Shown piece after piece: positions 30,767-52,894 of a stretch of DNA of 64,000 nucleotides (position 1 is the stretch's first letter; every line of letters begins with the position of its first letter). The position numbers and the translations under genes are program-made. Source of the stretch: Gammaproteobacteria bacterium. GTDB taxonomy: Bacteria; Pseudomonadota; Gammaproteobacteria; Ga0077554; Ga007554. Where the stretch lies: positions 1,682,188-1,746,187 of the forward strand of contig JAMPIW010000007.1 in the NCBI GenBank assembly GCA_040183005.1. Direction: 5' to 3'. Under the pieces are notes generated by a model, which saw nothing but the letters and a program-made list of their open reading frames with translations, was not told the origin of the DNA and did not search any database.

Positions 30767-32248
30767 GTGAATACAACCAAGATGTCCTATAAAGAGCGGC
30801 GTAACAATCCATCCAGGCACCGCGCAGGCATAGCGCTGTCCGTCGGCCTGCTGTGTGCCGCGATGCAGGTGCCTGCGCACGCGAATGAGGCCGTTTCCGA
30901 GCTAGTAAAGACCTTGAAGGAAAAAGGGGTACTAAGCAATGAAGAGTACGGCCAGATCAAGGACACCCTTCGGGAGATCAAGCAAAGCGAAGCCGAAGCC
31001 AAGCGCGGCGAATTAAAGCCGGTATTCAAGGATGGCATTGCCATCGAATCTGCCAGTAAGGATTTCAGCCTTTCTCTCACCGGTCGCGTGCATGCCGATT
31101 ATCGCAATTACCTGGGCAATGACGGCATGACTGCCGACACCTTCGAGATGCGTCGCGCCCGTGTTGGTGCCAAAGCCAAATTCTATGACCGCTACGAAGT
31201 GCAAGTGATTGGCGAATTCGGAGCGGGTGGCGCGGCGCTCGACATCGCCCATCTGGATGCCCTGTGGTGGCCGAAACTGGGCTTGCGTTTTGGACAGTTC
31301 AAAATGCCGATGGGGCTTGAGCAGCTTACCAGCTCCAATTTCATTGACTTCCAGGAACGTTCCCTCGCCGATCAACTGGTGCCCGGCAAGGAAATCGGCG
31401 CAATGGCATTCGGCGAGATCACCAAGGGCGTCAATTATGGCCTGGCGCTATCGAACGGGCGCGGCATCAACCGGGCAGAGCTTTCGAACATCGATACCAC
31501 GACCAGTCAGAACAACGCCAAGGCGGACAAGATGGATGTGATTGGCCGCATCACCGCCAATTTCGCTGAGATTCTTAAGCAGAAGGATGCCGTCTATCAC
31601 GCAGGCCTAGCCTTCTCCAAGGGCGAACAAGCGCCCGGCGACGGCGTATTGAGCGCCCGCTCTCAGGCCAGGGGCGCCAGTTTCTTCCAGACTGCGACTT
31701 TCGATGGCGAGAATTTTGATCGCACACGCTATGGCTTCGAAGGTGCGGCCGCGCGCGGCCCCGTCAAGTTACAGGGCGAATACTTGACGGCCAACTATCA
31801 GGGCAACAGCAAAGCTGGCGTCAACTTTGACCGGGACATCAGCGCCTGGTATGCCTCGATCAACTGGATGATCACTGGCGAGAAATATGCGGACAATTAC
31901 AAAGCTGGCGCGTTTGGCCGCATCCGTCCCAACACCAACTTCCAGCCCGGATCGCTGGCTGAAGGCTGGGGTGCCTGGGAGGTGGGGCTACGCTTCGCCG
32001 AGTACGATGCCTCCGACTTTAGTGCTGCCAATGCTGCCGGAACCGGACGCCTCGCCGCCTCCTCAGCAACAACCGCCTACACCAATAAGGCAGGCGCATG
32101 GACCGCAGGTGTAAAATGGATCGTCAACCCCAATACGCGCTTTATGTTGAACTATGTACAAACTGACTTTGACACCCCGGTCACTGTCAATGGCGTCACC
32201 AGCAAGAGCGAAAAAGCCGCCACACTGCGCGCCCAGTTTGATTTCTAA
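30767..32248 (+). CDS. Phosphate-selective porin (OprO/OprP family)
   Basis: A 493-residue outer-membrane porin. GTG 30767 with GGAGG 10 bp upstream is used; ATG at 30782 is an alternative. A signal peptide (about residues 15-40, ending QVPAHA) precedes a coiled-coil-like stretch (AVSELVKTLKEKGVLSNEEY) as in OprO/P proteins, then the barrel with GRVHADYRNY, FEMRRARVGAKAKFYDRYEV, LRFGQFKMPMGLEQLTSS and a C-terminal LRAQFDF. Expected to pass phosphate or polyphosphate into the periplasm. Its Pho-box promoter and the following pstS support induction under phosphate limitation. Confidence 0.92.
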   Translation: MNTTKMSYKERRNNPSRHRAGIALSVGLLCAAMQVPAHANEAVSELVKTLKEKGVLSNEEYGQIKDTLREIKQSEAEAKRGELKPVFKDGIAIESASKDFSLSLTGRVHADYRNYLGNDGMTADTFEMRRARVGAKAKFYDRYEVQVIGEFGAGGAALDIAHLDALWWPKLGLRFGQFKMPMGLEQLTSSNFIDFQERSLADQLVPGKEIGAMAFGEITKGVNYGLALSNGRGINRAELSNIDTTTSQNNAKADKMDVIGRITANFAEILKQKDAVYHAGLAFSKGEQAPGDGVLSARSQARGASFFQTATFDGENFDRTRYGFEGAAARGPVKLQGEYLTANYQGNSKAGVNFDRDISAWYASINWMITGEKYADNYKAGAFGRIRPNTNFQPGSLAEGWGAWEVGLRFAEYDASDFSAANAAGTGRLAASSATTAYTNKAGAWTAGVKWIVNPNTRFMLNYVQTDFDTPVTVNGVTSKSEKAATLRAQFDF

Positions 32249-32281
32249 GTCAAACCTACCCTAACCATTGAGGCAACACGC

Positions 32282-33292
32282 ATGTTAAATAGATCCATCA
32301 GAAAATCGATAGCCATGACCGCCGTTCTGGGCGGTCTGTCGAGCTTGTCAATGACGGCTATCGCTGTACCCACTATCAAGGCCGACGGCTCCAGCACCGT
32401 TTTCCCCATCACCGAAGCGGTCGCCGAAGAGTTTCAGAAAGCCAAGAAAGGGACAGTCCGCGTCACTGTGGGCATCTCCGGCACAGGCGGCGGGTTCAAG
32501 AAATTCTGCCGTGGCGAAACCGATATTCAGGATGCCTCGCGCCCGATTCTGGCGGGTGAAATGGAATCATGCAAAGCGGCCGGCATCCAATACATGGAAC
32601 TGCCCGTAGCCTATGACGCCCTCACTGTAGTGGTCAACTCCGAAAATAGCTGGGTAAAGAGCCTGACCGTGGCCCAACTCAAGAAGATGTGGGAGCCAAG
32701 CGCGCAAGGCAAAATCAGCAAATGGAACCAGATCGACCCCTCCTGGCCCGACGCACCCATCCGCTTGTTCGGCGCGGGCTCTGACTCCGGCACCTTCGAT
32801 TACTTCACCGAAGCTGTCGTAGGCAAGGCCAAATCCAGCCGTGGCGATTATACCGCCAGCGAGGATGATAACGTGCTGGTACAGGGCGTCATACGCGACA
32901 AGAACGCACTGGGTTACTTCGGCTACGCCTATTACGCCGAAAACGCCAGCAAGCTGAAGGCGGTGCCCATCTCGGTGCGGGACGGAAAAGCCGCCGTCGC
33001 ACCTGGCCCTACCGCGGTAATAAATGGCAGTTACCAGCCACTATCGCGCCCGATCTTCATTTATGTCAACGCGAAATCCATCCAGAAACCTGAAGTCAAG
33101 GAGTTCGTTGAGTTCTATCTGAAGAACGCATCCAATCTGGTCAAGCAGGTAAGCTACATCCCCCTGTCCGCCACCGATTATAATCTGGTGCTGGAAAACG
33201 CCAACAAGCGCAAGCTGGGCAGCCTTTTCGGCGGCGTACCCGAAGTGGGCGTAACCATTGATGAACTGATGCGGCGCGAAGGAAAGCTGTAA
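32282..33292 (+). CDS. pstS: Phosphate ABC transporter substrate-binding protein
   Basis: A 336-residue periplasmic phosphate-binding protein. A signal peptide ends near residue 28. Phosphate-binding segments are [31 protein letters not shown] and [16 protein letters not shown] lies 8 bp before the ATG and the gene follows the porin by 33 bp, so it shares the Pho-box promoter. pstC, pstA, pstB and phoU are not in the window, so this may be a second PstS separate from the transporter operon. A terminator follows. Confidence 0.95.
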
Positions 33293-33407: not shown

Positions 33408-34247
33408 TCATTTGACATTTTCAATACCCAACTGCATTGTGCGCTTTGAAAAAGATTCATCGGTAAGGCCAACATTCACTTTGATGTCGGTGATAGTCAA
33501 CAGGGTCTTATTGCCCGTTTGAACATTCACACCCACCACCTCCTCCCACGCCCAGACATCATTAATCTTTTTCCATTTTGTGAATTGCTGTTTTTGTAAT
33601 TTATTACGCTCATCATAATAATCAATGCGCAGCGGCAAGAAATTGTCCTTTGATATCCATCGCACAACCCTCCCATAGGGATAAATTTCCGCGCCGCCTT
33701 TTTTGGGAGCACTCTCTACGACATGGCAAGCAACACCATCCATGGCTTCGGACGGTAATAATTGGTGCGTGTCATCATCGGGATTTCGTGGCACAAGATC
33801 GAATTGCCGCAACTCCGACTTTGAAAACTCCTCCTCCTTAGCATGCTTCGGCCCGGTATGGCTCAATCTTCTAACCATTCGCAATTCGGGCAGGTATATC
33901 CACTCATCGTCGTTTTTATTAAGTTCTGGCTTATAAAAAATCCCTAAATAAGAGACGCCTTTGGCATCGGGAGGAAAGTCACGGAACATTATGACCTTTG
34001 TGTCGGCATCGCCTGCTCCCTGGAATTTTTTCCACGCCATGGAGTACACCAGCTTTTTTTCCGGCTCTCCTTTTTCCTGAAAAATAAAGGTGATTTTCGA
34101 CAGGGAATCATCCCCGCCATAGACCTGAAAGGATTTTCTCATGACGGCATCTGCGGAAAGTTCATCCGCATTGACAACGACTGGAACACACGTGAGAAAA
34201 ATAAGAACCACACCTAACCACTCAATCCTAATTCTCCTATATCCCAT
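33408..34247 (-). CDS. LolA-like outer membrane lipoprotein-sorting family protein
   Basis: A 279-residue secreted protein with a signal peptide (about 1-27, ending VVVNA). The body has the pattern of the LolA-like (Pfam LolA_like) family: DTKVIMFRDFPPDAKGVSYL, DEWIYLPELRMVRRLS, HVVESAPKK, RWISKDNFLPLRIDYYDERN and KTLLTITDIKVNVGLTDESF. Such proteins are found with MMPL/RND exporters and are thought to carry lipids or lipoproteins across the periplasm. It is a distant paralogue of the protein at 47.5-48.3 kb, near the exporter cluster. It follows the VIT1-type gene by 15 bp. Confidence 0.8.
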   Translation of the reverse strand: MGYRRIRIEWLGVVLIFLTCVPVVVNADELSADAVMRKSFQVYGGDDSLSKITFIFQEKGEPEKKLVYSMAWKKFQGAGDADTKVIMFRDFPPDAKGVSYLGIFYKPELNKNDDEWIYLPELRMVRRLSHTGPKHAKEEEFSKSELRQFDLVPRNPDDDTHQLLPSEAMDGVACHVVESAPKKGGAEIYPYGRVVRWISKDNFLPLRIDYYDERNKLQKQQFTKWKKINDVWAWEEVVGVNVQTGNKTLLTITDIKVNVGLTDESFSKRTMQLGIENVK

Positions 34248-36478: not shown

Positions 36479-38113
36479 ATGATACAGGCAAGCGGTTTAA
36501 CCAAGATATTCCCTTCCGGCACCAAGGCCGTGGATGGACTGGATCTCCACGTAAAAGAAGGGGAGATCTTCGCCTTGCTCGGTCCGAATGGCGCGGGGAA
36601 AACCACCACCATACGCATCTGCTCAACGCTCTCCGGCTTTGACGCCGGAAACGTGCAGGTAGCGGGCTATGACGTCGACAAAGACCCTGAAAAGGTCCGC
36701 GAATCCATCGGCGTCGTCGCGCAGCAGACCGGTATCGACTACTTTCTCACCGGGCGTGAGAACCTTGTCCTGCAGGGCCATCTCTATCGGATGAAAAAAG
36801 CTGACATCCAGAAACGGGTCGAAGAGCTTGCCGCCTATTTCGAGCTAAAAGACAGCCTGGACCAATTGGTCGCCACCTATTCCGGGGGCATGCGCAGAAA
36901 GCTGGATATCGCCACAGCGCTGATCCATCGCCCCAAAATCGTATTCCTTGACGAGCCGACACTAGGGCTGGACATAAAGAGCCGCAAAAACCTGTGGGCC
37001 TACATTGAAAAATTGAACCGCGAACTGGGACTCACCATTTTATTGACCACCCACTACCTGGAAGAGGCGGACAAACTTTCCCATCAGGTTGCCATTATCA
37101 ATGCAGGCAAGATACGCATCACCGGCACGCCGGAGGAACTGAAAACCGGCATCCACGGCGATTCTGTGCAGTTGACCTTCGAGCAGAATGACGCACAAGT
37201 GGGCGCCTTTGCCCACACCTTGAAAAACCAGCCAGAAATCAAGGATACCGTCTGGCAAGGCAACAAACTGCACATATATGTTGAAAACGGCGCGGCAAGC
37301 GTGCCTCGTATCGCCCTTATCGCATCACAGCAAGGCGTCAATATCAAGACCTTGTCCCTCTCCCGCCCGACACTGGACGATGTATTCCTGAAATACACCG
37401 GCAGCAGCCTGGAAGAAGTCAAGGAAGATACCGGACAAGAATGGTGGATGCAGTGGGCCGGCAAAGGCGGGGGCGGCAACTGGCAGAAGAAATGGGGCAG
37501 CGGGCAAGAAGACGCCAGCGATGAAAGCTCCGATCCCAAGGATACTGAAACACCAGAAACCGCATCTTCGTCCCCAGCGCAAGCATGGACCAAAGAAGAG
37601 ATGGCGGAATGGTGGAAAAACAAGGGCCAATCCAGCGGCGTCTCCGATACCGCTCCAGGCGATGCCGGGCAAGGCGGCGAGGAACCCATCCGCCCCCCCG
37701 CGCGCCCCATGAATCCAGCACAGACATGGACCAAGGAAGAAATGGAAGGATGGTGGAAGAGTCAAGGTCAATCCAGCGGTGCCCCTGGCACCCCTCCACC
37801 CCGTCAGGCAGTCACGCCACCCGCCGGACAACCCATGAATCCGGCACAAACCTGGACAAAAGAAGAAATGGAAGGATGGTGGCAGAACCAGGGTGACCCT
37901 GGCTCCGCTGACAACGCCCCTCCAGCGAGTCCGGAAGCCACTCCACCCTCTGTACAACCCATGAATCCAGCACAAACCTGGACAAAAGAAGAAATGGAGG
38001 AATGGTGGCGCAACAAGGGTCAAACTCCATGGCCTGCTGATAATAGCAATCAGCGAGGCAGCACACCATCGAATGAAACCAGTGAAAACCAAGACTCCGG
38101 CAAAAAAAGCTAA
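36479..38113 (+). CDS. DrrA-type ABC transporter ATPase with tryptophan-rich repeat tail
   Basis: A 544-residue protein. Residues 1-310 form an ABC-2 ATPase of the DrrA class: Walker A GPNGAGKTTT, signature YSGGMRRKLDIA, Walker B KIVFLDEPTLGLD, and the C-terminal DrrA-like extension (LSLSRPTLDDVFLKYTG). Residues ~311-544 are an unusual added tail: a segment rich in Trp, Gly, Gln and Lys, then four copies of AQ.WTKEEM..WW...GQ joined by Pro/Ser/Gly linkers, ending KKS. DrrA-type proteins usually stop near 310-330 residues. It precedes the permease gene by 59 bp. Exported substrate unknown; a lipid or drug-like molecule is usual for the class. Confidence 0.88.
   Translation: MIQASGLTKIFPSGTKAVDGLDLHVKEGEIFALLGPNGAGKTTTIRICSTLSGFDAGNVQVAGYDVDKDPEKVRESIGVVAQQTGIDYFLTGRENLVLQGHLYRMKKADIQKRVEELAAYFELKDSLDQLVATYSGGMRRKLDIATALIHRPKIVFLDEPTLGLDIKSRKNLWAYIEKLNRELGLTILLTTHYLEEADKLSHQVAIINAGKIRITGTPEELKTGIHGDSVQLTFEQNDAQVGAFAHTLKNQPEIKDTVWQGNKLHIYVENGAASVPRIALIASQQGVNIKTLSLSRPTLDDVFLKYTGSSLEEVKEDTGQEWWMQWAGKGGGGNWQKKWGSGQEDASDESSDPKDTETPETASSSPAQAWTKEEMAEWWKNKGQSSGVSDTAPGDAGQGGEEPIRPPARPMNPAQTWTKEEMEGWWKSQGQSSGAPGTPPPRQAVTPPAGQPMNPAQTWTKEEMEGWWQNQGDPGSADNAPPASPEATPPSVQPMNPAQTWTKEEMEEWWRNKGQTPWPADNSNQRGSTPSNETSENQDSGKKS
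37568..38017 (+). repeat. Four in-frame coding repeats, three with an exact 126-bp period
   Basis: Repeat starts are at 37568, 37709, 37835 and 37961. The last three are spaced by exactly 126 bp (42 codons); the first is 141 bp from the second. The conserved core is the DNA for PAQTWTKEEMEGWW; the proline-rich linkers vary more. Encodes the tail of the ABC ATPase. Tandem DNA identity suggests recent copy-number change is possible. Confidence 0.88.
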
Positions 38114-38172: not shown

Positions 38173-38934
38173 GTGCTCGCGGATACATGGTACTTATTTG
38201 GTAAATACATGAAGATCACCCTCAGGATGCCCTGGTGGTCGCTCTTCACCCTTATTCAACCGCTGATCTGGCTGGTAATCTTCGGCCAACTTTTCAAAAA
38301 CATCTCCCAGCTCCCCGGCTTTCCAGCCAACAGCTACGTCGATTTCTTTGTCCCTGGCGTACTCATCATGACTGTCCTGTTCGGATCGTCCTGGTCTGGG
38401 GTTAGTCTTTTAAGAGAGATCACGGCAGGCACTATCGACAAAATGCTCGTCGCGCCGGTATCGCGCACCGCCATTGTCCTCAGCCGGGTGCTGCACTCCG
38501 CTGTCCAGGTGCTCGCCCAAACCCTGATCATCCTCGCCGTATCCCTGGCGATAGGCGCGGCCACCAGTATCAACCCACTGTATATCAGCATGGCCATGCT
38601 GATCATCTTTCTGCTGGGGGTAGGCTTCGCCGCCCTGTCCAACGGCTTCGCCATCATGCTGCAACGCGAAGAACCGCTGGTCATGATAGGCAACCTGATG
38701 ACCCTGCCACTGATGTTCTTCTCGACCGCGCTCATGCCGGAAAACTTCATGCCCGACTGGATCGGCTATGTTGCTGCCATCAACCCCATCAATTATGCCG
38801 TAGAAGCGGTGAGAGCGGTATTGATCGGAACACCCGACTTCGGCGTATATGGGAAGGGCCTACTGGTACTGCTGGTGTTTGCGGGAGGCACGTTAGCCTG
38901 GGCAGTGAGCGCGTTTAATTCTTTGCGGGAGTGA
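38173..38934 (+). CDS. ABC-2 type transporter permease (DrrB-like)
   Basis: A 253-residue membrane protein with about six helices. Start GTG 38173 with AGGG 9 bp upstream. The ABC-2 pattern is clear: SLFTLIQPLIWLVIFGQLF, FFVPGVLIMTVLFGSSWSGV, REITAGTIDKMLVAPVSRT, and AAINPINYAVEAVRAVLIG. Forms the membrane half of the exporter with the ATPase just upstream. Its end converges on the TPR protein gene with 7 bp between. Confidence 0.92.
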   Translation: MLADTWYLFGKYMKITLRMPWWSLFTLIQPLIWLVIFGQLFKNISQLPGFPANSYVDFFVPGVLIMTVLFGSSWSGVSLLREITAGTIDKMLVAPVSRTAIVLSRVLHSAVQVLAQTLIILAVSLAIGAATSINPLYISMAMLIIFLLGVGFAALSNGFAIMLQREEPLVMIGNLMTLPLMFFSTALMPENFMPDWIGYVAAINPINYAVEAVRAVLIGTPDFGVYGKGLLVLLVFAGGTLAWAVSAFNSLRE

Positions 38935-38941
38935 GAGTCCA

Positions 38942-41671
38942 CTAAAAAAACAAGGTCATCCCAACTGTAAGGAGAGATTTGGAGTAATCTCCCAAGGCCC
39001 TACTTTGCACGCCTATGATATCTGTCGCATTCAGGATAAGACCTACAGGAAGATTCGAGTTGTTATTCTGGAAAGAATAACTGGCGAAGGCCCTCAGCTT
39101 ATCGTTGACTTCATAGTTCAAACCCAAGGAGAGGGAATTAAACACATTGGTTCGACGCTGCTGGAAATTGGAAACCGAGTCGGGATTCGTGTAATTATTT
39201 AAAGCAAAACTATACGCTACGTTAGCCGACATTTTTTCCGACAATGACTTGTCAAATCGCACTGTACCGGTATGACCATGATATGCATAGTCATGCCCTT
39301 CAGGCCGCGTATTACGATTGGCGGCAAAATCATAGCTCAGCAGAATCGACCGCCCAAGCCCCAACCCCTGATTGAACGTCAATCCTGTTGAGTACGTCAC
39401 AGAATCAAAAAAGCTGCTCGAAGTACTCGTAAAATCCCTATACGATAAATTGAATCTCATTATTGTCGGCGCGCTTTTTCTTTCCCCCGGCGCTGCAAAC
39501 CTCCCGAACACAGAGGGCATTTCAAAGCGCCATAATGTGTCGGCATAGACATTATTACCCACACTGACTCTTTGTTCATTGAGCAGGCCTGAGATATCGG
39601 TACGCGTCCCACCCAGCGTCACACTCCTGTTACTGGGACCCCAAGTAACAAACGGGCCAACATCTATTCTTGTAAAATCTGCCTGTGAAAAATGGTACAT
39701 CATATAAGCAGGGCTGACCGTCAAGCCACTTCTAACATTCCTGCTCAACTTATAGCGGTAGGTCATATTCAGAGAAAGATTTGATATATATTCATAAAAT
39801 GGCGCAATGTTGCTCAGATTGGTATTATTATCATAAGTCAACGAATAACCCATGTTATAGGTAAATCCGTTGATTTTGCGTTCAAGCGCCGGGATTTTTT
39901 TCTCAGCCGCCACCACCACCGGGCTTGCCCTCCCATTCTGCACTATAAACCTGTATTCCTTGAGCGCATCTTCTTCACGATTCGAGTTTTCATAGAGCAA
40001 GGCAAGGTTGCCGCGCGCGCTAAAATTATCGGGGTTCAGGCCAACAATCTGTTGATAGGTACGCTCCGCCTCACCTAGCTCACCTTTTCGTGACTGAATC
40101 AGCGCCGTGTAAAACAAGGCAATGATGTCGTTTGGATTCTTCTGAAGAATATCGTCAAAATGCCCTTTTGCAAGATCCAACTTATCTTTCGCGTACAAAT
40201 CCCTTGCCACGGCAAGTTGTAATTTATTTCTAATCCGCTCCGCCTCCGCAGGTTCTTTTTCCAGCGCAGCAGCCTTGTTATAGGCATCGACCGCCTTCTC
40301 GTACAATCCCTGGTCATCCTGAATCAGCCCAATATAGAAATGGGCCTTGGCATAATCAGGATTAATACGAATCACAGCTTCAAATTCACGGAGCGCCTCA
40401 TCCCGCAACGACTGCCTAGCATAGAGTGTTCCCAGATTAAAATGCGCCACCAAGTCATCAGGTTTGACCGCCAGAGTCTTTTTATACCCCTCCATTTCAT
40501 CCGCCAGTTTGCGCGCCTCAGCCAGTTTTTCACCAAACGTCTCCTGCATATTGCGAAGAATGGCGGCAGCCTGCTGTCCAGGCGGCGTGTTGGCACCAAT
40601 GGAAACCACCGCCTCCAACTCTCTGGAACTCTCTACGAATTTATTTACCTCCATATACATCACGCCAAGCCGTAATCGCGCCTCCAAATGGCGCGGCTCA
40701 ATCTCCAGCAATTTCTTGAACGTAGCCACCGCTTCATCCGGTTGCTTTAATTCACGATAAATCGTTCCAATATTGAAAAGGGCCATCAGCTCATTAGGAT
40801 CAATGGTCAAGACTCCTTGAAACTCTTTTAACCCCCCCTGGAGATCTTTCTTTTCGAGTAACTGAACCCCTTTTATGAGCCCAAGCCTGACCGTGGCCCT
40901 GCGTCCGATATCACTTCCCGGCTCGAGTGTAATGGCCCGTTTTAACTGTTCTACAGCAAGCGGAATTTTGCCGCTTCTTTCATAGATCCTGGCAAGATAG
41001 AAATGGGGCGTTGCACTACCGGGCACAAGCTGCATCACTTGCTTAAAAACACCCTCGGCATCATCCAGGCGATTAAAGTTAAAAAACGCCAGCCCCACGG
41101 CATGCAGAACACGCGAATCATTGGGATAATCCCTACGCAGCACGGACGCCAGGGCCAAAGCCGCATCGAAATCGCCGGCCTCCGCATATTGCCGGATCTG
41201 GAGCAGATAAAGGGCTTTCTCTGCATTCCTGGCCTCGTCCGTTCCTGGCGACTTGGACATGATGAATTTATACTCCTTCATCGCATCATCCAACCTGTTC
41301 AATTGCTCGTAAACAAGAGCCAGAGAGGCACGCACTTTCAAATTTCCAGGCGCAAGTATTGAACTTTTCTTTATATATTCCAAACCCTCATTCGGCTGGT
41401 TCTTGCGCATGTAAATAACACCGATGTAATAAATAGCCTCGGCATTTTCGGGGACAATCTTGAGTGCAGAATTGAAACTACCCAACGCGCCATCCAGATC
41501 ATCCTTATCCATCTGGGCTTTACCACTCGCCACAGCCTGTTCAAGTCCGAGTGATTCGGAAGGTGTTTTTTTGATGTCAGGAACCGATGATTGCTCCGCA
41601 GCAAAGACGAAACTCGCCTCATGAAGCAATAAGAGATTAAACACGAAAAACAACAACAGCCTTTTCTTCAC
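38942..41671 (-). CDS. TPR-repeat protein with C-terminal outer-membrane beta-barrel
   Basis: A 909-residue secreted protein. Signal peptide 1-24 (ending FVFA). Residues ~45-600 are a long run of tetratricopeptide repeats (for example AIYYIGVIYMRKNQPNEGLE, AHFYIGLIQDDQGLYEKAVD). The last ~300 residues alternate aromatic strands and end ALGDYSKSLLTVGMTLFF, the terminal-Phe signal of an outer-membrane barrel. The layout recalls exopolysaccharide or cellulose export porins, where periplasmic TPRs guide a polymer to the barrel, but no polymer synthase lies nearby. First of a minus-strand cluster ending here; it may be the outer-membrane exit for the exporters beside it. Confidence 0.82.
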   Translation of the reverse strand: MKKRLLLFFVFNLLLLHEASFVFAAEQSSVPDIKKTPSESLGLEQAVASGKAQMDKDDLDGALGSFNSALKIVPENAEAIYYIGVIYMRKNQPNEGLEYIKKSSILAPGNLKVRASLALVYEQLNRLDDAMKEYKFIMSKSPGTDEARNAEKALYLLQIRQYAEAGDFDAALALASVLRRDYPNDSRVLHAVGLAFFNFNRLDDAEGVFKQVMQLVPGSATPHFYLARIYERSGKIPLAVEQLKRAITLEPGSDIGRRATVRLGLIKGVQLLEKKDLQGGLKEFQGVLTIDPNELMALFNIGTIYRELKQPDEAVATFKKLLEIEPRHLEARLRLGVMYMEVNKFVESSRELEAVVSIGANTPPGQQAAAILRNMQETFGEKLAEARKLADEMEGYKKTLAVKPDDLVAHFNLGTLYARQSLRDEALREFEAVIRINPDYAKAHFYIGLIQDDQGLYEKAVDAYNKAAALEKEPAEAERIRNKLQLAVARDLYAKDKLDLAKGHFDDILQKNPNDIIALFYTALIQSRKGELGEAERTYQQIVGLNPDNFSARGNLALLYENSNREEDALKEYRFIVQNGRASPVVVAAEKKIPALERKINGFTYNMGYSLTYDNNTNLSNIAPFYEYISNLSLNMTYRYKLSRNVRSGLTVSPAYMMYHFSQADFTRIDVGPFVTWGPSNRSVTLGGTRTDISGLLNEQRVSVGNNVYADTLWRFEMPSVFGRFAAPGERKSAPTIMRFNLSYRDFTSTSSSFFDSVTYSTGLTFNQGLGLGRSILLSYDFAANRNTRPEGHDYAYHGHTGTVRFDKSLSEKMSANVAYSFALNNYTNPDSVSNFQQRRTNVFNSLSLGLNYEVNDKLRAFASYSFQNNNSNLPVGLILNATDIIGVQSRALGDYSKSLLTVGMTLFF

Positions 41672-41752: not shown

Positions 41753-42673
41753 CTAATAATAAATATTTATCTTGAACAATGCCTTCCATCCATCAAAGGA
41801 TAGTCTAAGTTTTTTATAGCCCGACCCATCTGCCGCCTGATATTCAAGATTGCCGTCTTCAGGGTCGGAAACACCGCTTTCCGAAGGATTGGGTCGAACA
41901 GGGGTATTCATAAATATGCCATCAGTGGGCAAAAAATCTCTGTTGATATTATTATTTCTAAACGTAAACTTCCTGAGGCCATAGCTATAACTTGTCTCAA
42001 ACCCAAGCGATAACCATTTTTTTAAAAAAACCTCCCCACCAACCCCCGGCTGCAACATGAGAATTCCCGTAGCTTTCGATTCAATAACAAAGATCTTTTT
42101 GAAAGTTGCCGCCGGACCATCCAGATACAGGAATACCCAGTCTTCCCGATAGCCGATATCAAAAATTTCATGCAGTGACAAACGGAAATACAGATTGTAT
42201 TTATCAGGCTGGCTTATCGCAGTATGTTTCCAGCCCAGAAAAAACTCGTTATAAGAAAGCGTGGCCCTTCTGTCGTTTGTAACATTCGCCTCAAATCCCT
42301 GGACAGGAAACCTTCCATTGACAGTCGATGCCGATGAGCCTTCCCATGTACTTCCTCCAATCAAGAGTGCATTTTTTTTATCGGGCTTCCATTGAAACTC
42401 AATACCTGCCAGAGGGGCATAGTTAATACCAGGCAGAGGGTTGCTGAACACTTGACCTATAATTCTAGTGGGCGTATCTGCCGTAAGTATATCGGCCTCA
42501 TACTTGAGTGGCGCCCTGAACACACCTTCATTCAGCACTTTAAGATTAGGGGCGTGAATCCCAAGTATGGGTGAAAAACTCCATTGATACTCATCCTGTT
42601 TGGCATAGGCAACATTGCAAAACGTCGAAATACCTGCCAGGGCTGGGATGAATAGCAGAAAAACCCTGTGCAT
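41753..42673 (-). CDS. Secreted outer-membrane-type protein of unknown function
   Basis: A protein of 306 residues. ATG 42673 (MHRVFLLFIPALAG) gives a signal peptide ending NVAYA and begins 8 bp after the MMPL stop; the longer frame would overlap MMPL by 53 bp. The mature part is rich in Phe, Tyr and Gly with alternating strand patterns (FNPLP..., FFLGWKHTA, FRLSLHEIFDIGYRE) and ends ALFKINIYY, which fits a small beta-barrel. No family recognised. Gene order puts it between the exporter and the TPR barrel. Confidence 0.7.
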   Translation of the reverse strand: MHRVFLLFIPALAGISTFCNVAYAKQDEYQWSFSPILGIHAPNLKVLNEGVFRAPLKYEADILTADTPTRIIGQVFSNPLPGINYAPLAGIEFQWKPDKKNALLIGGSTWEGSSASTVNGRFPVQGFEANVTNDRRATLSYNEFFLGWKHTAISQPDKYNLYFRLSLHEIFDIGYREDWVFLYLDGPAATFKKIFVIESKATGILMLQPGVGGEVFLKKWLSLGFETSYSYGLRKFTFRNNNINRDFLPTDGIFMNTPVRPNPSESGVSDPEDGNLEYQAADGSGYKKLRLSFDGWKALFKINIYY

Positions 42674-42680
42674 CAGATCT

Positions 42681-45164
42681 CTACACAACACCTTGATGCT
42701 TTCCTTGAGAAAGGCGCGGCTTGAAGTAGGCAAACACCACGGGCAGCGCCATCAACGCCGCCAAACAACTCACCACCATGTATGCGGCGACAAAATACCC
42801 CAGCTTCTGGTTGGGAGGGAATTGGGAAAAGAACAACACCAAAAATCCCACCGTAACAATCATCGCATTAAACACAATGGTCTTTCCGACACTACGCAAC
42901 GTACCCAGCGTAGCGATCCGGTGATCATCAGTTTTTTGCCGCTCACGGCGATAACGGAAAATATAATGTATCGCGTAATCCACACCCACACCGATAGCGA
43001 CGCCCGTTGCCAGCGTCGTGGAAACGTCAATGGGAATACCGATAAAACCAGCACAACCTGCAATCAGCACGGTCGCTAGCGTTACGGGAATGATGGTCAC
43101 CAGCCCCATGGAAAAAGACCGGAACAACAGCGCCGCAAGCAGGAATATGCCCAGCTTTGACAGTACAATGGCCATGCCCTGCCCCTTGATCAGCAGCTCT
43201 GCCCATATATAGGAATTATTTGCAGAACCCGCCAAATTTACCTCAACATCCAATCCGGACATTTCCTTCTTCACAAAATCATTGACCCCATCAATGATCA
43301 CCTTGAGATCGCCGGTATGGTCCGTCTTGATGAAAAAGGTTACGTTGGCCTGCCGGTAATCATAATCTATTACCTCATTCAGCAGCTCGGGCTGGCCAGA
43401 TATGGAAAATAAAAAGAGGTCTTCAGCAACTTCCGCTTGAGATGCCGGCAATACATTGTACTGAGGTGCATCCGCATGAAGCGTTTTGTTCATGCTCTTC
43501 AAATAATCAACCACGGACAGCGAATCGCCCACATAAGGCAGGCCCTCAATCTTGTTCTGCAGCGCCTCGATCTTCTTCAATATCGCCAGCGACTTGAGAG
43601 CATCTTTTTGCTTGCCTTCGACAACCACATTCAGGAAAATCGTTCCGTCGAACTTCTTGTTCAGCATGTCATTGGAAAGCGCCACCTCGCTGTCTTTTTT
43701 GAAGTCACTCATCCAACTTGAATCCACATGCAGCAATGTCGCACCATAGACACCCACCACGGTCATCACAATCAGCGCAAGGCTCATGCTTTTTTTATTT
43801 TTGAGGGCGACCTCGCCCCAGCCCACCAAAGTCCGGGTAATCCGGTCTTGCTCCGCATGAACACGCATCGCACGCCGCTTTGCCAGATAACCACCAACCT
43901 TCGGCTTCAATTGACACAATGCGGCGGGGAGAAAGGTCACAGACAACAGCCAGCAATACACGATGCCGAGCACCGTGAACAAACCAAAGGTCTTGAACGG
44001 TGGCATTTCCGAAAACAACAGGGAAAGAAAACCTATCGCCGTCGTAAGCGACGTCGTGATCAAGGGCGGCCCGAGCTCCTCCAGCACCTGCCCAACAATC
44101 ACCTTTCCTTCCCGATAAGGGTCGCTTAAGACATTGTCGTAATAATTGGTTAACAGATGAACGGCATTACCTATCGCCACAGCCACCAGTATCACCGGCA
44201 GCATGGTGGAAATGGTATACAACGGTACATTCAGCGCCGCCATCGTCCCCATAGTCCAAATAATGCCAGCCGCCATTATCAGCAAGGGCAAAACCACGCC
44301 ACGCAATGTTTTAAACACAATAAAGAGAACAGCCATGATCGCCACTATCAGCAGCGGTATCATGACCTTCATGTCCTGCATGGCATAAAATCCCGAGCTA
44401 ACCTCGATGACCGGTCGGCCTGCCATGTAAAACACATCCGCATCCTTGTCAGCGGCCATATCGCTCTTTGCGGATGACTTGGCCTGTTGCTGCCACTGAC
44501 CCTGCCCGCCGCCTTGCGGCCATTTACCCTGCTGCCAATTGCCGCCACCAGCTCCGGGCTGGCCACCCCACGATCCGCCCCCTTGCTCCGCCGCGAGTAT
44601 CCCCTTGATCTGCCAATAGGTCTGATACCGGTTCGCTATCCCCTCCTTGAGCTTGGCTCGGATCATGGCCCCCGTGCCATCCTTGGAAACAATATTACCT
44701 ACAAACAAATCGCTATTGCCGTAAACGACACTCTTGAGCCGCTCGATGCCCACCTGATCGGTGGGCACGGTTTCCATGAGCCGCTGCGTGCTCAACTCCG
44801 ATTCAGTTCCAGTGAACACAGTGGCGGTGGACAATGAGGCCACATCTATCGTCCGATTGGCAATTACCCCCGGCAGCGCCGAAATTTTTTCCGTGATACG
44901 CGCAATGCGCGCCAACGTCTTGGGGTTAAAAATACCCTCTTTCTCGTTGACAATACCGATGATGACGGCATCCTTGACGCCAAACACCTCATCGACCCTT
45001 TCATCATAGAGAATCGCGGCATGTCCTTTAGGAAGGAAAACACGGGCGTCCGTCTCCCAGTGTAGCTTGGGCAACTGAAAGGCAAAAAATACCGTAATTC
45101 CAGCGATGACGAGCATCACGCTCTTGGGGAAATTCGTAACTAGGGCGTATAACCTGTTGAGCAT
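42681..45164 (-). CDS. MMPL/RND superfamily exporter
   Basis: An 827-residue inner-membrane protein with two MMPL halves, each one helix, a large periplasmic loop and a five-helix bundle: first half around MIPLLIVAIMAVLFIVFKTL and AVAIGNAVHLLTNYYDN; second half around GMAIVLSKLGIFLLAALLF and VGVDYAIHYIFRYRRERQ. Acidic residues in the helices suit proton-driven export. Residues ~190-232 of the first loop are an insertion rich in Gly, Gln and Trp (GGGNWQQGKWPQGGGQ). Relatives export lipids or hydrophobic compounds (for example HpnN, MmpL). DUF1302-type and LolA-like genes upstream suggest a trans-envelope route. Confidence 0.88.
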   Translation of the reverse strand: MLNRLYALVTNFPKSVMLVIAGITVFFAFQLPKLHWETDARVFLPKGHAAILYDERVDEVFGVKDAVIIGIVNEKEGIFNPKTLARIARITEKISALPGVIANRTIDVASLSTATVFTGTESELSTQRLMETVPTDQVGIERLKSVVYGNSDLFVGNIVSKDGTGAMIRAKLKEGIANRYQTYWQIKGILAAEQGGGSWGGQPGAGGGNWQQGKWPQGGGQGQWQQQAKSSAKSDMAADKDADVFYMAGRPVIEVSSGFYAMQDMKVMIPLLIVAIMAVLFIVFKTLRGVVLPLLIMAAGIIWTMGTMAALNVPLYTISTMLPVILVAVAIGNAVHLLTNYYDNVLSDPYREGKVIVGQVLEELGPPLITTSLTTAIGFLSLLFSEMPPFKTFGLFTVLGIVYCWLLSVTFLPAALCQLKPKVGGYLAKRRAMRVHAEQDRITRTLVGWGEVALKNKKSMSLALIVMTVVGVYGATLLHVDSSWMSDFKKDSEVALSNDMLNKKFDGTIFLNVVVEGKQKDALKSLAILKKIEALQNKIEGLPYVGDSLSVVDYLKSMNKTLHADAPQYNVLPASQAEVAEDLFLFSISGQPELLNEVIDYDYRQANVTFFIKTDHTGDLKVIIDGVNDFVKKEMSGLDVEVNLAGSANNSYIWAELLIKGQGMAIVLSKLGIFLLAALLFRSFSMGLVTIIPVTLATVLIAGCAGFIGIPIDVSTTLATGVAIGVGVDYAIHYIFRYRRERQKTDDHRIATLGTLRSVGKTIVFNAMIVTVGFLVLFFSQFPPNQKLGYFVAAYMVVSCLAALMALPVVFAYFKPRLSQGKHQGVV

Positions 45165-45345: not shown

Positions 45346-46812
45346 TTATGGAAAATATCCAAGGAATTGCGGCCTTTGCTGCGTAGCGGCAACGATGGGC
45401 GAAATGCCCCCGCCGGGATCGCCAAAGAAGCCCTTTTTTCCCCAAAAAAGATCCATGCCAACCCCTACTTGGAACTTGTCGGTCACCTGAAAGGTAACCT
45501 TAGGCTTCAGGTATGATTCCTTCATATTGATCAGATATATCCATAGAAACTGAGCCGTCGCGGAGTGTTGAGGAAACTCTTTTCTGCCAAAAAGATTGAA
45601 AGAACTGTCATTCCGCGCCTGAATCAATTCCGGGTCATGATTCAAAATTATCCACTGGGTAACCCCTGGCGACAGATCCAGGCCTTTTATATTGAAGTCC
45701 AGCCCCATCCCCCAGCGGATATGATCCCGCTTAAGTTCTCCATTATTATCAAGATAACCGTCGCCATTCCTATCCACTGTATTTTTCAACCCAAAATACT
45801 TACCCGTCACATAGGCTGCCTCGCCCTTTAGAATAACCGGACCGAGCTGCTTGACTGCGGTTCCACCGTACATCGCTATCCTGTTATAGGTTGGATACAA
45901 GACCGGATCTTCCTGCTTATCGAGCCTGATCGTGCGAAAAACCGTGGGGAAAAAATCCCATGTATATAAATAGCTCAGCGACACCTCAGTATCGAAAATA
46001 TTGGTAGTCGCCTTGAGCCCTACCTCGGAGTTCTCCAGCTTGAATGATTGAGGTTTCTTGGTTAATACAGTTCCAAAATTATCTCGAATCTCCTGAAGAA
46101 GCTCCCATTCAGAACCACGCGGCGCCGATTTGTGAAACTGGATATCGGGTATCACCAGGAATTGGTACGTAGTATCGCCGCGATAATGATCCATCTTCAG
46201 CGTCCACTGAGATATCCTATAATCCAGCAAATCTGGCAGGATCAGCTCCCTGAAGTCGACAGGATTTACTTCGTCTACGATTCTGACACCTTCCAGCACA
46301 CCCCACACAACATACTGCTTACCCAGGCGAATATCGAGATTTTTGAGGAACACATCAAAATAAAGCTCCCGGGTTGCTGCCACTGGGGAGTCTTTCTCAT
46401 GTTCAAGATTTTCAACAAAAACCAGAGGCTGCTGGGCATCTCGCTGTGGCCTGGCCGCAATCGTGCGGTAATCAAACAAATCATAGGCTAGGTCATAATA
46501 GGCCCAGCCAGTATAATTAAATTTAACATTTGAACTAAAAGGGTATTGCGCGTTCACATAGAGAATGTTCCGTATCTTGGTGATCGATCGTGGCTCACGG
46601 ATTCGGTACGCAGTTTCATTCTTCAAATAACCGCTCACACTCAGCTTGGACCAAAAGGAAGACTTCTCCTTTTGGACTTCACCCTCCCCAGCGGCCACCC
46701 CAAAATCAGCGCCTTGTATTTTTGCCTCATCGGCATATACGAATTGATGACTACCCATCAAAGCCGCCGCCCACAGGGCAACAGCACATCGCACTATCTT
46801 TCTTGCTTTCAA
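45346..46812 (-). CDS. DUF1302-type outer-membrane protein, C-terminus frameshifted
   Basis: A 488-residue secreted beta-barrel protein: signal peptide 1-27 (ending FVYA), then long alternating strands such as YLKNETAYRIREPRS, LDIRLGKQYVVWGVLEG and RIVDEVNPVDFRELILPD, the last typical of DUF1302/DUF1302-like proteins found with MMPL exporters. As read, the frame ends RPQFLGYFP at 45346. Skipping one base in the run of five C at 45407-45411 instead gives about 30 further residues ending NNDRIFMDFKYSF at a stop at 45306, a proper barrel C-terminus. Either a sequencing error, a mutation, or phase variation. It lies about 180 bp upstream of MMPL. Confidence 0.82.
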   Translation of the reverse strand: MKARKIVRCAVALWAAALMGSHQFVYADEAKIQGADFGVAAGEGEVQKEKSSFWSKLSVSGYLKNETAYRIREPRSITKIRNILYVNAQYPFSSNVKFNYTGWAYYDLAYDLFDYRTIAARPQRDAQQPLVFVENLEHEKDSPVAATRELYFDVFLKNLDIRLGKQYVVWGVLEGVRIVDEVNPVDFRELILPDLLDYRISQWTLKMDHYRGDTTYQFLVIPDIQFHKSAPRGSEWELLQEIRDNFGTVLTKKPQSFKLENSEVGLKATTNIFDTEVSLSYLYTWDFFPTVFRTIRLDKQEDPVLYPTYNRIAMYGGTAVKQLGPVILKGEAAYVTGKYFGLKNTVDRNGDGYLDNNGELKRDHIRWGMGLDFNIKGLDLSPGVTQWIILNHDPELIQARNDSSFNLFGRKEFPQHSATAQFLWIYLINMKESYLKPKVTFQVTDKFQVGVGMDLFWGKKGFFGDPGGGISPIVAATQQRPQFLGYFP

Positions 46813-47240
46813 ATCCGATCCTTACATTGATCACAAAGGATAACATGACCTTCGCCGGACAGCCCTAACCCCAAAGTAACCAACATTCCCGGTGCAAGCC
46901 GCCGTCCACAACCAGAACAATCCATTTGTCTATTCAACTTGATCTCTTCCCACCCCAAAACTGAAGGAAACCTGACCGGTTGAGATACCGTGCTTATCGG
47001 TGCTTGTGGACTCGGTGCCGCAACATTGCGCCCCGCGGTCTGCCCCCCAGCAAACGCCTCTTCAAGGATCGTGCGTATCAGGATGGAAACAGGCACGCCC
47101 AGATCACTCGCTCTTTGCATCACCCGATCCCGCAACACCTTAGGCACCCTGGCCCCTAAAAATTCTTCCTTACGCTTCATTGCAACAGACATTGCCTTAT
47201 CTCGCATAGCCTGTGCTTGTGTTATCGGCCTCTCACGCAT
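46809..47240 (-). CDS. Ribbon-helix-helix-like protein with C-terminal zinc ribbon
   Basis: A 143-residue protein. Residues ~26-65 (FLGARVPKVLRDRVMQRASD, SILIRTILEEAF) look like a ribbon-helix-helix DNA-binding fold. A Pro/Gln-rich linker follows, then a zinc ribbon with CSGCGRRLAPG and CDQCKDRI. It is the first gene of the minus-strand cluster; its stop overlaps the DUF1302 start by 4 bp. A perfect inverted repeat spans its promoter and ribosome site, so autoregulation is likely. Family not recognised by name. Confidence 0.75.
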   Translation of the reverse strand: MRERPITQAQAMRDKAMSVAMKRKEEFLGARVPKVLRDRVMQRASDLGVPVSILIRTILEEAFAGGQTAGRNVAAPSPQAPISTVSQPVRFPSVLGWEEIKLNRQMDCSGCGRRLAPGMLVTLGLGLSGEGHVILCDQCKDRI

Positions 47241-47482: not shown

Positions 47483-48334
47483 CTATTTGCTATACCCTTT
47501 CTCCAAAGTCCTTTCAGCAAAAAGGCTATCCTGCAGACCAACATTGATCTCGACGTTGGTAACCTCAAACAGAGAAGAGTGCAGGGTTTGTACATTTTGA
47601 ACAACAACCTTATCCCACACCCATGCCGGCCCCACTTTTTGCCAGCGCAAATTTTGCCTTTTCAGCAAATCGCCCCTTTTGTCGTAATAATCAACTCGCG
47701 CCTTGATGCAACCATCCCAAGTAGGTGTCTTCAAGAACCAGGATAGTCGCTTGCTATACAGCGGGCTTTTTTCCTTCGGTGTACTCTCCACCACGTAAAA
47801 GTCATTATTGTTGGCGGTTTCGATTCGGATCAACTTGTGCTCATCCTCATCCCATGCCCTGCCACTGATATCGGCATACGTCAAATCCGACCCCAAAAAA
47901 CTATCACCCGGATCCCTGATCGAAACCCGCCGTATCTTTCTCAATGCCGGCAGATAAATCCACTGATCGGCATTCTTGTCCGACTCACGGGTAAATGCCC
48001 AACGCATAAAGGCCGCACCCTGGGCATCCGGTGGATATTCCGTGAAGAGAATCATTTTATCGGCGACACCCTCGGCCCCCTTATAATCCTTCCACAAACG
48101 GAGGTAGACATTTTTTCTCTCGCTCCCCGAGCTGTCCTTGAGAATAATCGCCAACTTTGAGCGCTGATCATTACCGGGGTTTTTGAAATCACAGTTTTTC
48201 ACGACATCTTCACCCGTCACACTCCCTGCCCCGTCTTGAGCCGCGTGAACCTGGGGTGTAACGACCACACCGGACAACAACAATGAAAGCGCCATCAGAT
48301 AACGCTTAATACTGAAACCCATCAATGGACCCAT
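47483..48334 (-). CDS. LolA-like outer membrane lipoprotein-sorting family protein
   Basis: A protein of 283 residues. ATG 48334 (MGPLMGFSIKRYLM) follows AGGAG by 6 bp; the longer frame is rejected. Signal peptide ends near TPQVHA. Conserved LolA-like blocks: DKMILFTEYPPDAQGAAFMR, DQWIYLPALRKIRRVSIRD, FYVVESTPKE, RVDYYDKRGDLLKRQ and SLFEVTNVEINVGLQDSLF. Same order of blocks as the protein at 33.4-34.2 kb. Placed upstream of the ribbon-helix-helix gene and the DUF1302/MMPL genes, it likely serves as periplasmic carrier for that exporter. Confidence 0.82.
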   Translation of the reverse strand: MGPLMGFSIKRYLMALSLLLSGVVVTPQVHAAQDGAGSVTGEDVVKNCDFKNPGNDQRSKLAIILKDSSGSERKNVYLRLWKDYKGAEGVADKMILFTEYPPDAQGAAFMRWAFTRESDKNADQWIYLPALRKIRRVSIRDPGDSFLGSDLTYADISGRAWDEDEHKLIRIETANNNDFYVVESTPKEKSPLYSKRLSWFLKTPTWDGCIKARVDYYDKRGDLLKRQNLRWQKVGPAWVWDKVVVQNVQTLHSSLFEVTNVEINVGLQDSLFAERTLEKGYSK

Positions 48335-48660
48335 GGTGACTCCTGTTTTGTTTTGATACGGCTTCATCCCGGTGACCAAGGTAAACGGGCTCGGTTCCGC
48401 CAATAGCCTGAAGCTCAGGTTACGGAACCCAACCTCTTCTCTAGATCACTCTTTTCTTTGAAATGCCTGTAGGTGGAATTGATCTGCATTACCGCCATAG
48501 GATCGAGACCATTAGATTGATTATTGTACACATTCACTGAAGGCCCTTTTTTCAGACCGTGTATGGAGGCTAGGAAGTTACCCTGACTGGTCAAATCTTG
48601 TCAAACATTTTTGGCTGTTATGCAAGGCATCAAGGAGATATCGACCCAGGAGTACTAACG

Positions 48661-48815: not shown

Positions 48816-49781
48816 TCAGAACGTGGGCACAGGGCCAAAGATGGCTGTTTTCCAGGTGGGGTTAGGGGCCGTGTCAAACAGCGGCTTAGCGGTCAAGCTG
48901 AAGTAGTTGATATTAGCAGTCGAATTACCGCTAACAGGATCAACCTTATCATAGGCCTGGAAGCCGAATACCTGTTGTGCGGAACCGGTACCGGTGCCGG
49001 CAAGGGTCACCTGCTGACCAATCAAGGTTGCCCTCACATTTTCACCCGCAGCAAAGGCGAGCGTCTGGGTACCGCCGGTAGAGGTTGGCAAGGGTGGCAA
49101 TGAGAATGCGCCGCCCGCAGCGACTGCAGTACCCCCCGCCTCGCGCATGCGGAAGACCTGGGTATCCGCAGTAGGTCCAGCCCCTGCCAGCCCGACGACC
49201 TGGTCCATACTCATGACCTTACTAATGACGGGACTACCGGAGGCATTCGCTTCTTGCGCCATGTCAAAATTTGAAACGAAAATGCTTGCAGTATCGGTCA
49301 GACTCTGATGCAGGGTAATTTTCGAATTGCCGCTCGCCAAAGCCCAACCCGTATCCACCGCACTGGTAGTAACAAAATCAATGGTGCTCGGCACCGGTAG
49401 TAATGAACCGAGCTGACTGACCGACTGCATGTCCGAAATACCGTTCACAGCGCCTATTTTGACAAAGTTCGAGTCAAAGAAGCTAAGAGGGGTCGTGCTG
49501 GTGGGATTACCGGTAGCACCTTTATCTGTGACGATGGTTTGATAGTAGCTGGTACCCACGGGTTCAGCTGCGCCGTTGCCTGCCGTAAGCTGGCGCTGCA
49601 GGAAGCCATCGCCCGTCATCAAAATCACACAGCTATAATTTGTTGGGCAGGCCCCAGCGGCAATCGTGCCACCCGCCACACTCCAGTTGGTCAGGCTGTC
49701 TGGGCCGGCCGCCATCGCCACCCCCGATAAAATCATCGCCACTGAACCGGCGGAAGCCATAAACATTATCTTGTTACGCAT
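48816..49781 (-). CDS. Secreted protein of unknown function
   Basis: A protein of 321 residues, starting at ATG 49781 with GGGGAG 7 bp upstream. Signal peptide MRNKIMFMASAGSVAMILSG followed by VAMAAG. The mature protein is rich in Ser, Thr, Gly and Ala with few charged residues (CPTNYSCVILMTGDGFLQRQ is one of its few distinctive stretches, with two cysteines that could pair). No lipobox, no sorting tag recognised. A consensus CRP-type site lies about 165 bp upstream. Possibly an extracellular or surface protein; no family recognised. Confidence 0.75.
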   Translation of the reverse strand: MRNKIMFMASAGSVAMILSGVAMAAGPDSLTNWSVAGGTIAAGACPTNYSCVILMTGDGFLQRQLTAGNGAAEPVGTSYYQTIVTDKGATGNPTSTTPLSFFDSNFVKIGAVNGISDMQSVSQLGSLLPVPSTIDFVTTSAVDTGWALASGNSKITLHQSLTDTASIFVSNFDMAQEANASGSPVISKVMSMDQVVGLAGAGPTADTQVFRMREAGGTAVAAGGAFSLPPLPTSTGGTQTLAFAAGENVRATLIGQQVTLAGTGTGSAQQVFGFQAYDKVDPVSGNSTANINYFSLTAKPLFDTAPNPTWKTAIFGPVPTF

Positions 49782-49942
49782 ATCATATCTCCCCAATCAT
49801 GACACCCAATTTAGAGGCAAACTTATCGCCCCGTCCAAAACACCTGAGTACATCTGTGGGGTTATTTTTAACATGGGCCAACATGTTTGTCAAGGCCATT
49901 AATATTTATCGGCTCATCCAGGGAAAATCTTTAGGCTAGAGA

Positions 49943-51149: not shown

Positions 51150-52472
51150 TCAGCCTGATGCCTGCACAGACCGCAACGGCAACAGCTCATCAATGCGGCT
51201 GTTAGGCCAGGTCGGCAGTTTCTCCAGCGTATCCTTCAGCCAGGCAGCCGGCTCGATGCCGTTGAGTTTCGCCGTTGCGAACAGGCTCTGGATGGCGGCG
51301 GCGCGGCGGCCCGCGCGTTCACTGCCGGTGAACAGCCAATTCTTTTTACCAAGCGCAATAGGACGGATAGCATTTTCCACCGGGTTGTTATCGATGGGGT
51401 AACGGCCATCCCCGAGGTAGCGCTTGATTGCATCCCAGCGTTTGAGGCTGTAGTCGATGGCCTTGGCGGTGCCGCTACCCGTGGCGGTGGTGAGCCGTGT
51501 GCGCTGGAGCCAGGCATGGAATTCGTCCAGCTTCGGCTTGGCGTGTTGCTGGCGTAATCATCGACCATAAGGGCACCCTTCCAGCCTTGCAGGAAGTTCC
51601 TGGCATGTTTGCCGCGCCGGTCGGCCTGGTAGTCGAAGAGGACGAGGGGGTCTCCCTGTTCGAGATCACAACTTCGGTAGGCCCAGAGGAAGGCGCGTAG
51701 CGTTTTTCCCCGTCCGGGGTCGAGTTGCTGCACCGGGGTCTCGTCGGCGTGCAAGACGGTGCGCTGGCGAAGTATCTCAGCCAGCCGGTCGGCCAGCGGC
51801 TGGAGTGCCACGCCAATGCGACCTACCCATTCGGCCAAGGTGGAGCGTGACAGGGTAACCCCACTGCGGGCCGCGATCTGCTCCAGCCGGTAGAGAGGCA
51901 GGTGATCCATGAATTTGCTGACCATCACCCAGGTGAGCAAGCCCGGCGCCGCCATGCCGCCGTCGATGACCGCCGGCGGAATCGGCGCCGCACTGACGGC
52001 CTCACAAGCACGGCAAGCATACTGCGGACGAATGTGGCGATGCACGAAGAAGCGGGCGGGCTCGACATCCAGTTGCTCGCTGATGTCTTCGCCGATCTTG
52101 ACCAGATCCTTGCCGCACTGGCCGCAGGTGCAACCCTCAGGTTCGTGGCGATGCTCGATGCGCGGGAGATGATCCGGCAACGGCTGGCGACCGGCGCGTT
52201 CGCGCTTGGGTTGCCGGGTAGATGCCACCTGTTCCACTTCGGCTTCCAGCGCACTGGTGTCGGTATTCCAGCTTTCCTCGAACAACTCGCGCTGCTCCAA
52301 GGAGAATTGTTCGCTCTTGTTGGTAAAAGCGAATGCGCTTGTAGTAGGCGAGCTCGAAGGTCAGGGCTTGGATTTTGAGCGCATCTTTTTGGGTTCTTTC
52401 GAGCAGCTTGCCTATCCATTCCGCCAAGGCGGGATCGGGCTTGAATTGGGCGAGTTCGGCGGCTAAATCCAT
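51150..52472 (-). pseudogene. IS66 TnpC of element B, disrupted
   Basis: Reading from ATG 52472 (MDLAAELAQFKPDPALAEWI) the protein breaks at about 52325, where CGCTTTTACC has one extra T relative to the intact copy C, and again at about 51553, where 193 bp are missing (after LMVDDYA). It resumes as MENAIRPIALGKKNWLFTGS to 51150. From LKIQALTFELAYYK onward it is almost identical to the TnpC of element C, while the first ~35 residues are unrelated to it, so the gene is a mosaic. Confidence 0.88.
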
Positions 52473-52552
52473 GCCTGTATTTTACCACTGGCATGCTCCG
52501 CAAGCCAGTAACAGCAAGGGTTTTAGGCTGTTTATCCACTAAAATAACGCGC

Positions 52553-52894
52553 TTACACTTGCCACTGTGACGGCGGTGGCGCCGAGAGTCTTTGCCAGTC
52601 GACACCGGCGGTCAGCCAGTCCCATTGTGCTGGCGTGAGGGCGAAGGTGGTGGCGTCCGATGTCGGCCAGATAAAGTGACCACGATGCAGGCGACGCTGA
52701 CAGAGCCAGACGCCAGTACCGTCCCAGATCAGGAGCTTGAGGCGGTTCTGGCGCCGGTTGCGGAAGGCGTAGGCCGTGCCGTCGCAAGGGGAGCGGCCGA
52801 GCGTGTTCTGGATGCGCTGGGAGAGGCCATCAATGCCGGCACGCATATCGATCGGTTCGACCACCAGCCAGACTTGTGCGGGCGTGGGGATCAT
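52553..52894 (-). CDS. tnpB: IS66 Orf2/TnpB of element B
   Basis: A 113-residue IS66 TnpB: VWLVVEPIDMRAGIDGLSQR, PCDGTAYAFRNRRQNRLKLL, WDGTGVWLCQRRLHRGHF. ATG 52894 overlaps the tnpA stop by 4 bp. Open frame intact, but its element lacks a working tnpC. About 60 percent alike by eye to the TnpB of element C. TnpB is needed for IS66 transposition; its exact role is unclear. Confidence 0.9.
   Translation of the reverse strand: MIPTPAQVWLVVEPIDMRAGIDGLSQRIQNTLGRSPCDGTAYAFRNRRQNRLKLLIWDGTGVWLCQRRLHRGHFIWPTSDATTFALTPAQWDWLTAGVDWQRLSAPPPSQWQV

Follow-up and report, generated by a model that had tools for sequence, protein, structure and literature searches.

A tryptophan-rich C-terminal tail is a trait of a subfamily of DrrA-type ABC ATPases found in at least nine gammaproteobacterial families; the WTKEEM array of the gene described here is a late, lineage-specific layer upon this conserved tail. 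The RND pump encoded nearby carries a Trp-rich insertion of its own, and the two pumps co-occur almost perfectly across genomes. The Trp segments putatively act as multivalent handles, either for an amphiphilic cargo that both pumps share or for the export assembly; this is the most likely reading of the sequence data.

The ATPase and its tryptophan-rich tail

The gene lies in a window (the whole stretch of DNA that was analysed) of 64,000 nucleotides from a member of the Gammaproteobacteria. The ORF at 36479-38113 (+ strand) has an ATG start and encodes a DrrA-type ABC ATPase of 544 amino acids. Its parts, with the basis for each, are:

36479..37408, + strand: DrrA-type ABC ATPase domain and DrrA C-terminal domain, residues 1-310 (TIGR01188, PF00005, PF13732)
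37409..38110, + strand: hydrophilic Trp-rich C-terminal tail, residues 311-544 (Trp content; no known domain)
37436..37495, + strand: conserved Trp box, residues 320-339, QEWWMQWAGKGGGGNWQKKW (invariance across orthologues)
37586..37615, + strand: WTKEEMAEWW, copy 1, residue 370 (motif scan)
37727..37756, + strand: WTKEEMEGWW, copy 2, residue 417 (motif scan)
37853..37882, + strand: WTKEEMEGWW, copy 3, residue 459 (motif scan)
37979..38008, + strand: WTKEEMEEWW, copy 4, residue 501 (motif scan)

The TIGR01188 (drrA) profile matches the ATPase with 333.1 bits (cut-off 312.45) and stops at residue 308; PF13732 (DrrA1-3_C) matches residues 216-307 with 36.7 bits (cut-off 27.4). About 234 residues are therefore extra, which bears out the tail of some 230 residues beyond the DrrA part that a preliminary description of the sequence had given. 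DrrA proteins usually stop soon after the PF13732 domain (there is no curated length criterion). This length is exceeded here and in every one of 28 orthologues, which measure 407-640 amino acids. Taken alone, and judged by its profile matches, the ATPase belongs to the DrrA family and carries an extension. An AlphaFold model of it, built from four near-identical sequences, reached a pLDDT of 34; its quality is too poor for use.

Tryptophan makes up about 7.6% of the tail, against 1.30% in sampled ORFs of the same genome. The tail has no match in NCBIfam, none above cut-off in Pfam and no sequence relative in the PDB; the Ish1 domain (PF10281) scores 17.9 bits, below its gathering cut-off of 26.6, and spans 16 of 37 positions. 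No described counterpart of the tail was found in the open-access literature, which agrees with the preliminary description.

The four WTKEEMxxWW copies are spaced 141, 126 and 126 bp apart, confirming the earlier account of four copies with three on an exact 126-bp period; TRF likewise reports a period of 126. At least one copy appeared in 0 of 20,000 shuffled tails, and motif searches match in the ATPase gene only. A comparison of repeat number among strains, which had been proposed, gave 3, 3 and 4 copies in three other genomes of the genus (all MAGs). An assembly artefact, raised earlier as a possible origin of the repeats, is ruled out because the 126-bp units are just 50-71% identical to one another and copies are present in these independent genomes. 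Trp-Trp distances in the tails are non-random, with 5 and 8 enriched and 2 and 4 avoided; the arrays contribute to this. An amphipathic helix was considered for the WTKEEM motif and dropped, as its hydrophobic moment equals that of its shuffles at best.

The most conserved part of the tail is the Trp box, which was absent from the preliminary description, as was the RND insertion. The box lies directly after the DrrA domain and has the pattern WWxxWAGK...WxxxW; W322, W323, W326, A327, G328, K329, W335 and W339 are identical in 28/28 orthologues, drawn from nine gammaproteobacterial families. A peptide search with the box is positive in 24 of 369 genomes of the class, which rules out the tail as the unique invention of one gene; roughly 6.5% of the sampled gammaproteobacterial genomes have the system. 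Outside the class, nothing convincing was found in a phylum sample of 398 genomes, where three matches are marginal (E 0.002-0.01) and two of these have an in-frame stop. Plasmid-borne relatives were also considered and dropped; only distant permeases of less than 38% identity were among the matches listed.

The orthologue tails are about 100 to 333 residues long and contain 7.4-11.8% Trp. Pooled, they have 9.0% Trp and just 0.1% each of Tyr and Phe. They are acidic (net charge -4 to -32) and nearly free of aliphatic residues. Outside the core box, the sequence varies strongly between families. All distant orthologues have a Trp-rich tail, and the exact WTKEEM-type motif is mostly absent from them; sister genera have one motif copy each, such as WSPEEMEAWW. 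The Trp units are lineage-specific: WTKEEM in this genus, WTPEEM/WTEEET in genome G087, WSKEEA in G058, WQGNEWV in G308 and WRNNEWNK...DWKKWA in G082.

Across four genomes of the genus, the ATPase domain has a pN/pS of 0.06; the values are 0.00 in the Trp box, 0.03 in the motif copies and 0.48 in the linkers. The Trp box has undergone zero nonsynonymous changes within the genus; its value of 0.00 is thinly supported because synonymous differences are few (6, summed over pairs). Motifs and core are under purifying selection and spacers drift; this is the pattern expected of a multivalent tail, unlike that of neutral filler.

The RND pump and its genomic surroundings

The following features surround the ATPase gene:

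38173..38934, + strand: ABC-2 type permease, 253 aa (PF01061, 103 bits)
38942..41671, - strand: TPR protein with a probable C-terminal beta-barrel, 909 aa (TPR families; conserved neighbour)
41753..42733, - strand: probable small outer-membrane protein of no known family, 326 aa (locus conservation)
42681..45164, - strand: MMPL/HAE3-like RND transporter, 827 aa (PF03176, 126 bits against a cut-off of 20.5)
44430..44585, - strand: Trp/Gly/Gln-rich insertion of the RND protein, residues 194-245, in the TM1-TM2 interval (orthologue comparison, TM positions)
45346..46812, - strand: DUF1302 outer-membrane protein, 488 aa (PF06980, 46.2 bits)
47483..48403, - strand: LolA-like/DUF1329 periplasmic protein (PF17131, 147.4 bits)
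33408..34247, - strand: second LolA-like/DUF1329 protein (PF17131, 138.5 bits)

The ATPase and permease genes point toward the opposite-strand set for the TPR/barrel, small outer-membrane, MMPL/RND, DUF1302 and LolA-like proteins. The permease passes the general ABC2_membrane family (PF01061) and scores 133 bits with the DrrB profile TIGR01247, under the cut-off of 223.05. The ABC pair is flanked by housekeeping genes such as TsaD; this conserved neighbour points to mainly vertical inheritance. The RND gene belongs to a fixed operon, DUF1302-RND-OMP-TPR/barrel, and the DUF1302 gene adjoins it in every compared locus whose sequence extends far enough. The small outer-membrane protein is conserved across 15 aligned loci, and its family has weak OMP_b-brl matches in 3 members only. 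Its AlphaFold model, also built from four near-identical sequences, reached a pLDDT of 28 and is likewise too poor for use.

Several other features lie nearby. Just upstream of the DUF1302 gene, an ORF of 143 aa (46809-47240) has relatives in six compared loci and contains a stretch resembling a small ribbon-helix-helix type DNA-binding protein; it is a possible regulator. Beside the LolA-like gene, positions 48816-49796 encode a secreted-looking protein of 326 aa that belongs to no Pfam family and has a relative of 39% identity in genome G003. A gene for a phosphate-selective porin (Porin_O_P) is followed by one for a PstS-like binding protein at 30767-33292. Two ORFs that overlap in different frames (51236-52605) resemble parts of an IS66-type transposase; the element is probably broken. 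Two genomes of family f75, G208 (locus L143) and G081 (locus L144), have two tandem DUF1302 genes before the RND gene and an extra copy of the small outer-membrane protein family on the same contigs.

The RND protein scores 226.6 bits with the HAE3 profile TIGR00921, under the cut-off of 351.9. Its Trp-rich insertion is present in 23/23 RND orthologues of the class sample, with a length of 41-146 residues and 4-12% Trp; W210 is present in all of them. The insertion is missing from all seven RND paralogues examined (about 32% identity). Pooled insertions contain 8.2% Trp, 0.4% Tyr and 1.7% Phe. In the RND family, the region between TM1 and TM2 is periplasmic. From its TM1-TM2 position and this usual topology, the insertion would belong to the first periplasmic domain, and it and the cytosolic ATPase tail would thus face opposite sides of the inner membrane. 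The two segments differ in Trp spacing, and they show no covariation across families, neither in motif style nor in length (p = 0.33).

Permease orthologues occur in exactly the 24 of 369 class genomes that have the tail box; the weakest has an E-value of 1.9e-94, with no match from there to the 1e-50 limit. RND orthologues (more than 50% identity) occur in 23 of these 24 genomes and in 0 of the 345 others, as raw genome counts that include shared descent. In the f75 genomes and some of family f36, the RND operon lies on another contig than the ABC pair, and both are retained; in G208, for example, they are apart on contigs C5 and C8. The one exception, G310 (91% complete), has the ATPase with its Trp-rich tail, the permease, the small outer-membrane protein and the TPR protein. 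An RND orthologue was not found at the usual place in this genome; the gene is either lost or within unassembled sequence. In its locus L161 (G310:C169, 8780-11482), which has the small outer-membrane and TPR genes, a PilT-like gene stands where the RND gene normally precedes them.

Such segments are rare in this genome. Among 456 ORFs in 464 kb of sampled stretches, a hydrophilic 50-residue stretch with at least 4 Trp is found only in the ATPase, the RND protein and one implausible ORF. In the compared neighbourhoods (274 ORFs), the ATPase and RND families alone contain one. A whole-genome search with the RND insertion gave no further convincing match.

Possible roles of the Trp segments

The ATPase may drive an ABC-2 exporter that shares one export line with the MMPL/RND pump and outer-membrane partners, a proposal given a little less than an even chance. 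Flexible Trp-only segments would act as multivalent handles of low affinity, keeping the same cargo, or an assembly presenting it, near the pump mouths. The cargo would be amphiphilic, probably a long lipid or glycolipid. The ATPase tail would gather it on the cytosolic side, the ABC pair would move it, and the RND insertion would hold it on the periplasmic side before it is passed to LolA-like carriers and outer-membrane barrels. In this genus, the WTKEEM repeats would raise the valency of the tail. The co-occurrence of the pumps, also where their loci are apart, and the rarity of such segments speak for this proposal; the placement of the segments on opposite membrane sides, their differing Trp spacing, their lack of covariation and the G310 exception speak against it. 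The multivalent binding tail of the preliminary description is favoured by selection on the motifs, by Trp as almost the only aromatic residue and by the non-random Trp spacing; what did not stand is its link to this one gene, the feature being common to the whole subfamily. The wider proposal is a tentative one: Gammaproteobacteria would possess a previously undescribed two-pump export line, with disordered Trp-only segments at each face of the inner membrane that hand a single amphiphilic cargo on from the ABC exporter to the MMPL/RND pump.

Two links to known metabolism were considered and dropped. Hopanoids are unlikely as cargo, since hopene cyclase is above the family cut-off in 0 of the 24 system-bearing genomes; a link to dsr sulfur oxidation was set aside with dsrA above cut-off in 0 of 24.

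The segments may instead be protein scaffolds, a possible but rather doubtful explanation. The cytosolic tail would dock a partner, such as a cargo-making enzyme, or cluster ABC transporters, and the RND insertion would do likewise, separately, in the periplasm. Short motifs that start like a capped helix (W-S/T-x-E-E), with drifting linkers between them, resemble linear protein-binding motifs; they occur in family f1 and in some genera of families f52 and f81. In mycobacteria, loops of the RND protein MmpL7 reportedly touch late biosynthetic enzymes (PMC11539658). However, the neighbours of the ABC pair are housekeeping genes such as TsaD and include no conserved gene for a cytosolic enzyme that would clearly belong to a cargo pathway, and the strong variation of the tail between families outside the core box also speaks against docking.

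Anchoring to the membrane is improbable. Trp prefers membrane interfaces and the core box comes immediately behind the DrrA domain, so Trp at the inner-leaflet interface could hold or regulate the ATPase, and Trp of the RND protein could touch the outer leaflet. In contrast, the tails are acidic and nearly without aliphatic residues, the motif, when read as a helix, does not exceed its shuffles in amphipathic character, and the RND insertion is within a periplasmic domain, far in sequence from TM1. That the tails are low-complexity filler of little function, grown by replication slippage, would suit the differing copy numbers and fast-evolving linkers, but it is very unlikely given a core invariant in nine families, a pN/pS close to 0 in both the core and the motifs, the cost of Trp as a residue and the near absence of such segments elsewhere in the sampled genome.

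Relation to known export systems

The nearest functional parallel, by analogy, would be export of PDIM in mycobacteria, which depends on DrrABC together with MmpL7, an RND protein, and LppX, a lipoprotein; the C-terminal domain of DrrA is required and is a proposed substrate binder (PMC11539658). Both systems combine a DrrA-type ATPase and ABC-2 permease with an MMPL/RND protein, and a LolA-like protein here would correspond to the lipoprotein there. In contrast to the present ATPase, the M. tuberculosis DrrA stops at residue 331, with no Trp-rich tail described (PMC11539658). There is also one permease gene here instead of two, and outer-membrane proteins are added.

AmeABCD of Castellaniella defragrans, a monoterpene efflux system, represents an RND + DUF1302 + DUF1329 set for apolar compounds; it shares with the present system an HAE3-type RND protein with DUF1302 outer-membrane and LolA/DUF1329 periplasmic proteins (PMC6394551). 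This set scores above cut-off here (PF06980, 46.2 bits; PF07044, 41.6 bits). No homologue of AmeC (COG4447) is among the neighbour genes scanned with Pfam. The AmeABCD paper mentions neither an ABC pair nor a Trp-rich insertion, whereas both are present here (PMC6394551). The system is filed under no known type because the DrrB and HAE3 cut-offs are not reached and the ABC pair is unlike Ame.

The Wzm/Wzt O-antigen transporter is also an ABC exporter whose ATPase has an added C-terminal part on the cytosolic side, through which Wzt contacts its polymer (PMC9445017). That part is a folded carbohydrate-binding domain, unlike the low-complexity tail here, which has no Pfam match above cut-off. 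The RND protein is distantly homologous to the hopanoid transporter HpnN (TIGR03480, 95.9 bits), but it is far below the cut-off of 751.85, and the hopene cyclase result also separates the two systems.

Disordered tails with Trp as the near-sole aromatic residue are unusual. That ABC and RND pumps work as one line has already been proposed for PDIM in mycobacteria; Trp segments in two near-perfectly co-occurring pumps are a testable sign of such a line in Gram-negative bacteria. The segments mark an uncharacterised export system, and their Trp residues offer a handle toward its cargo.
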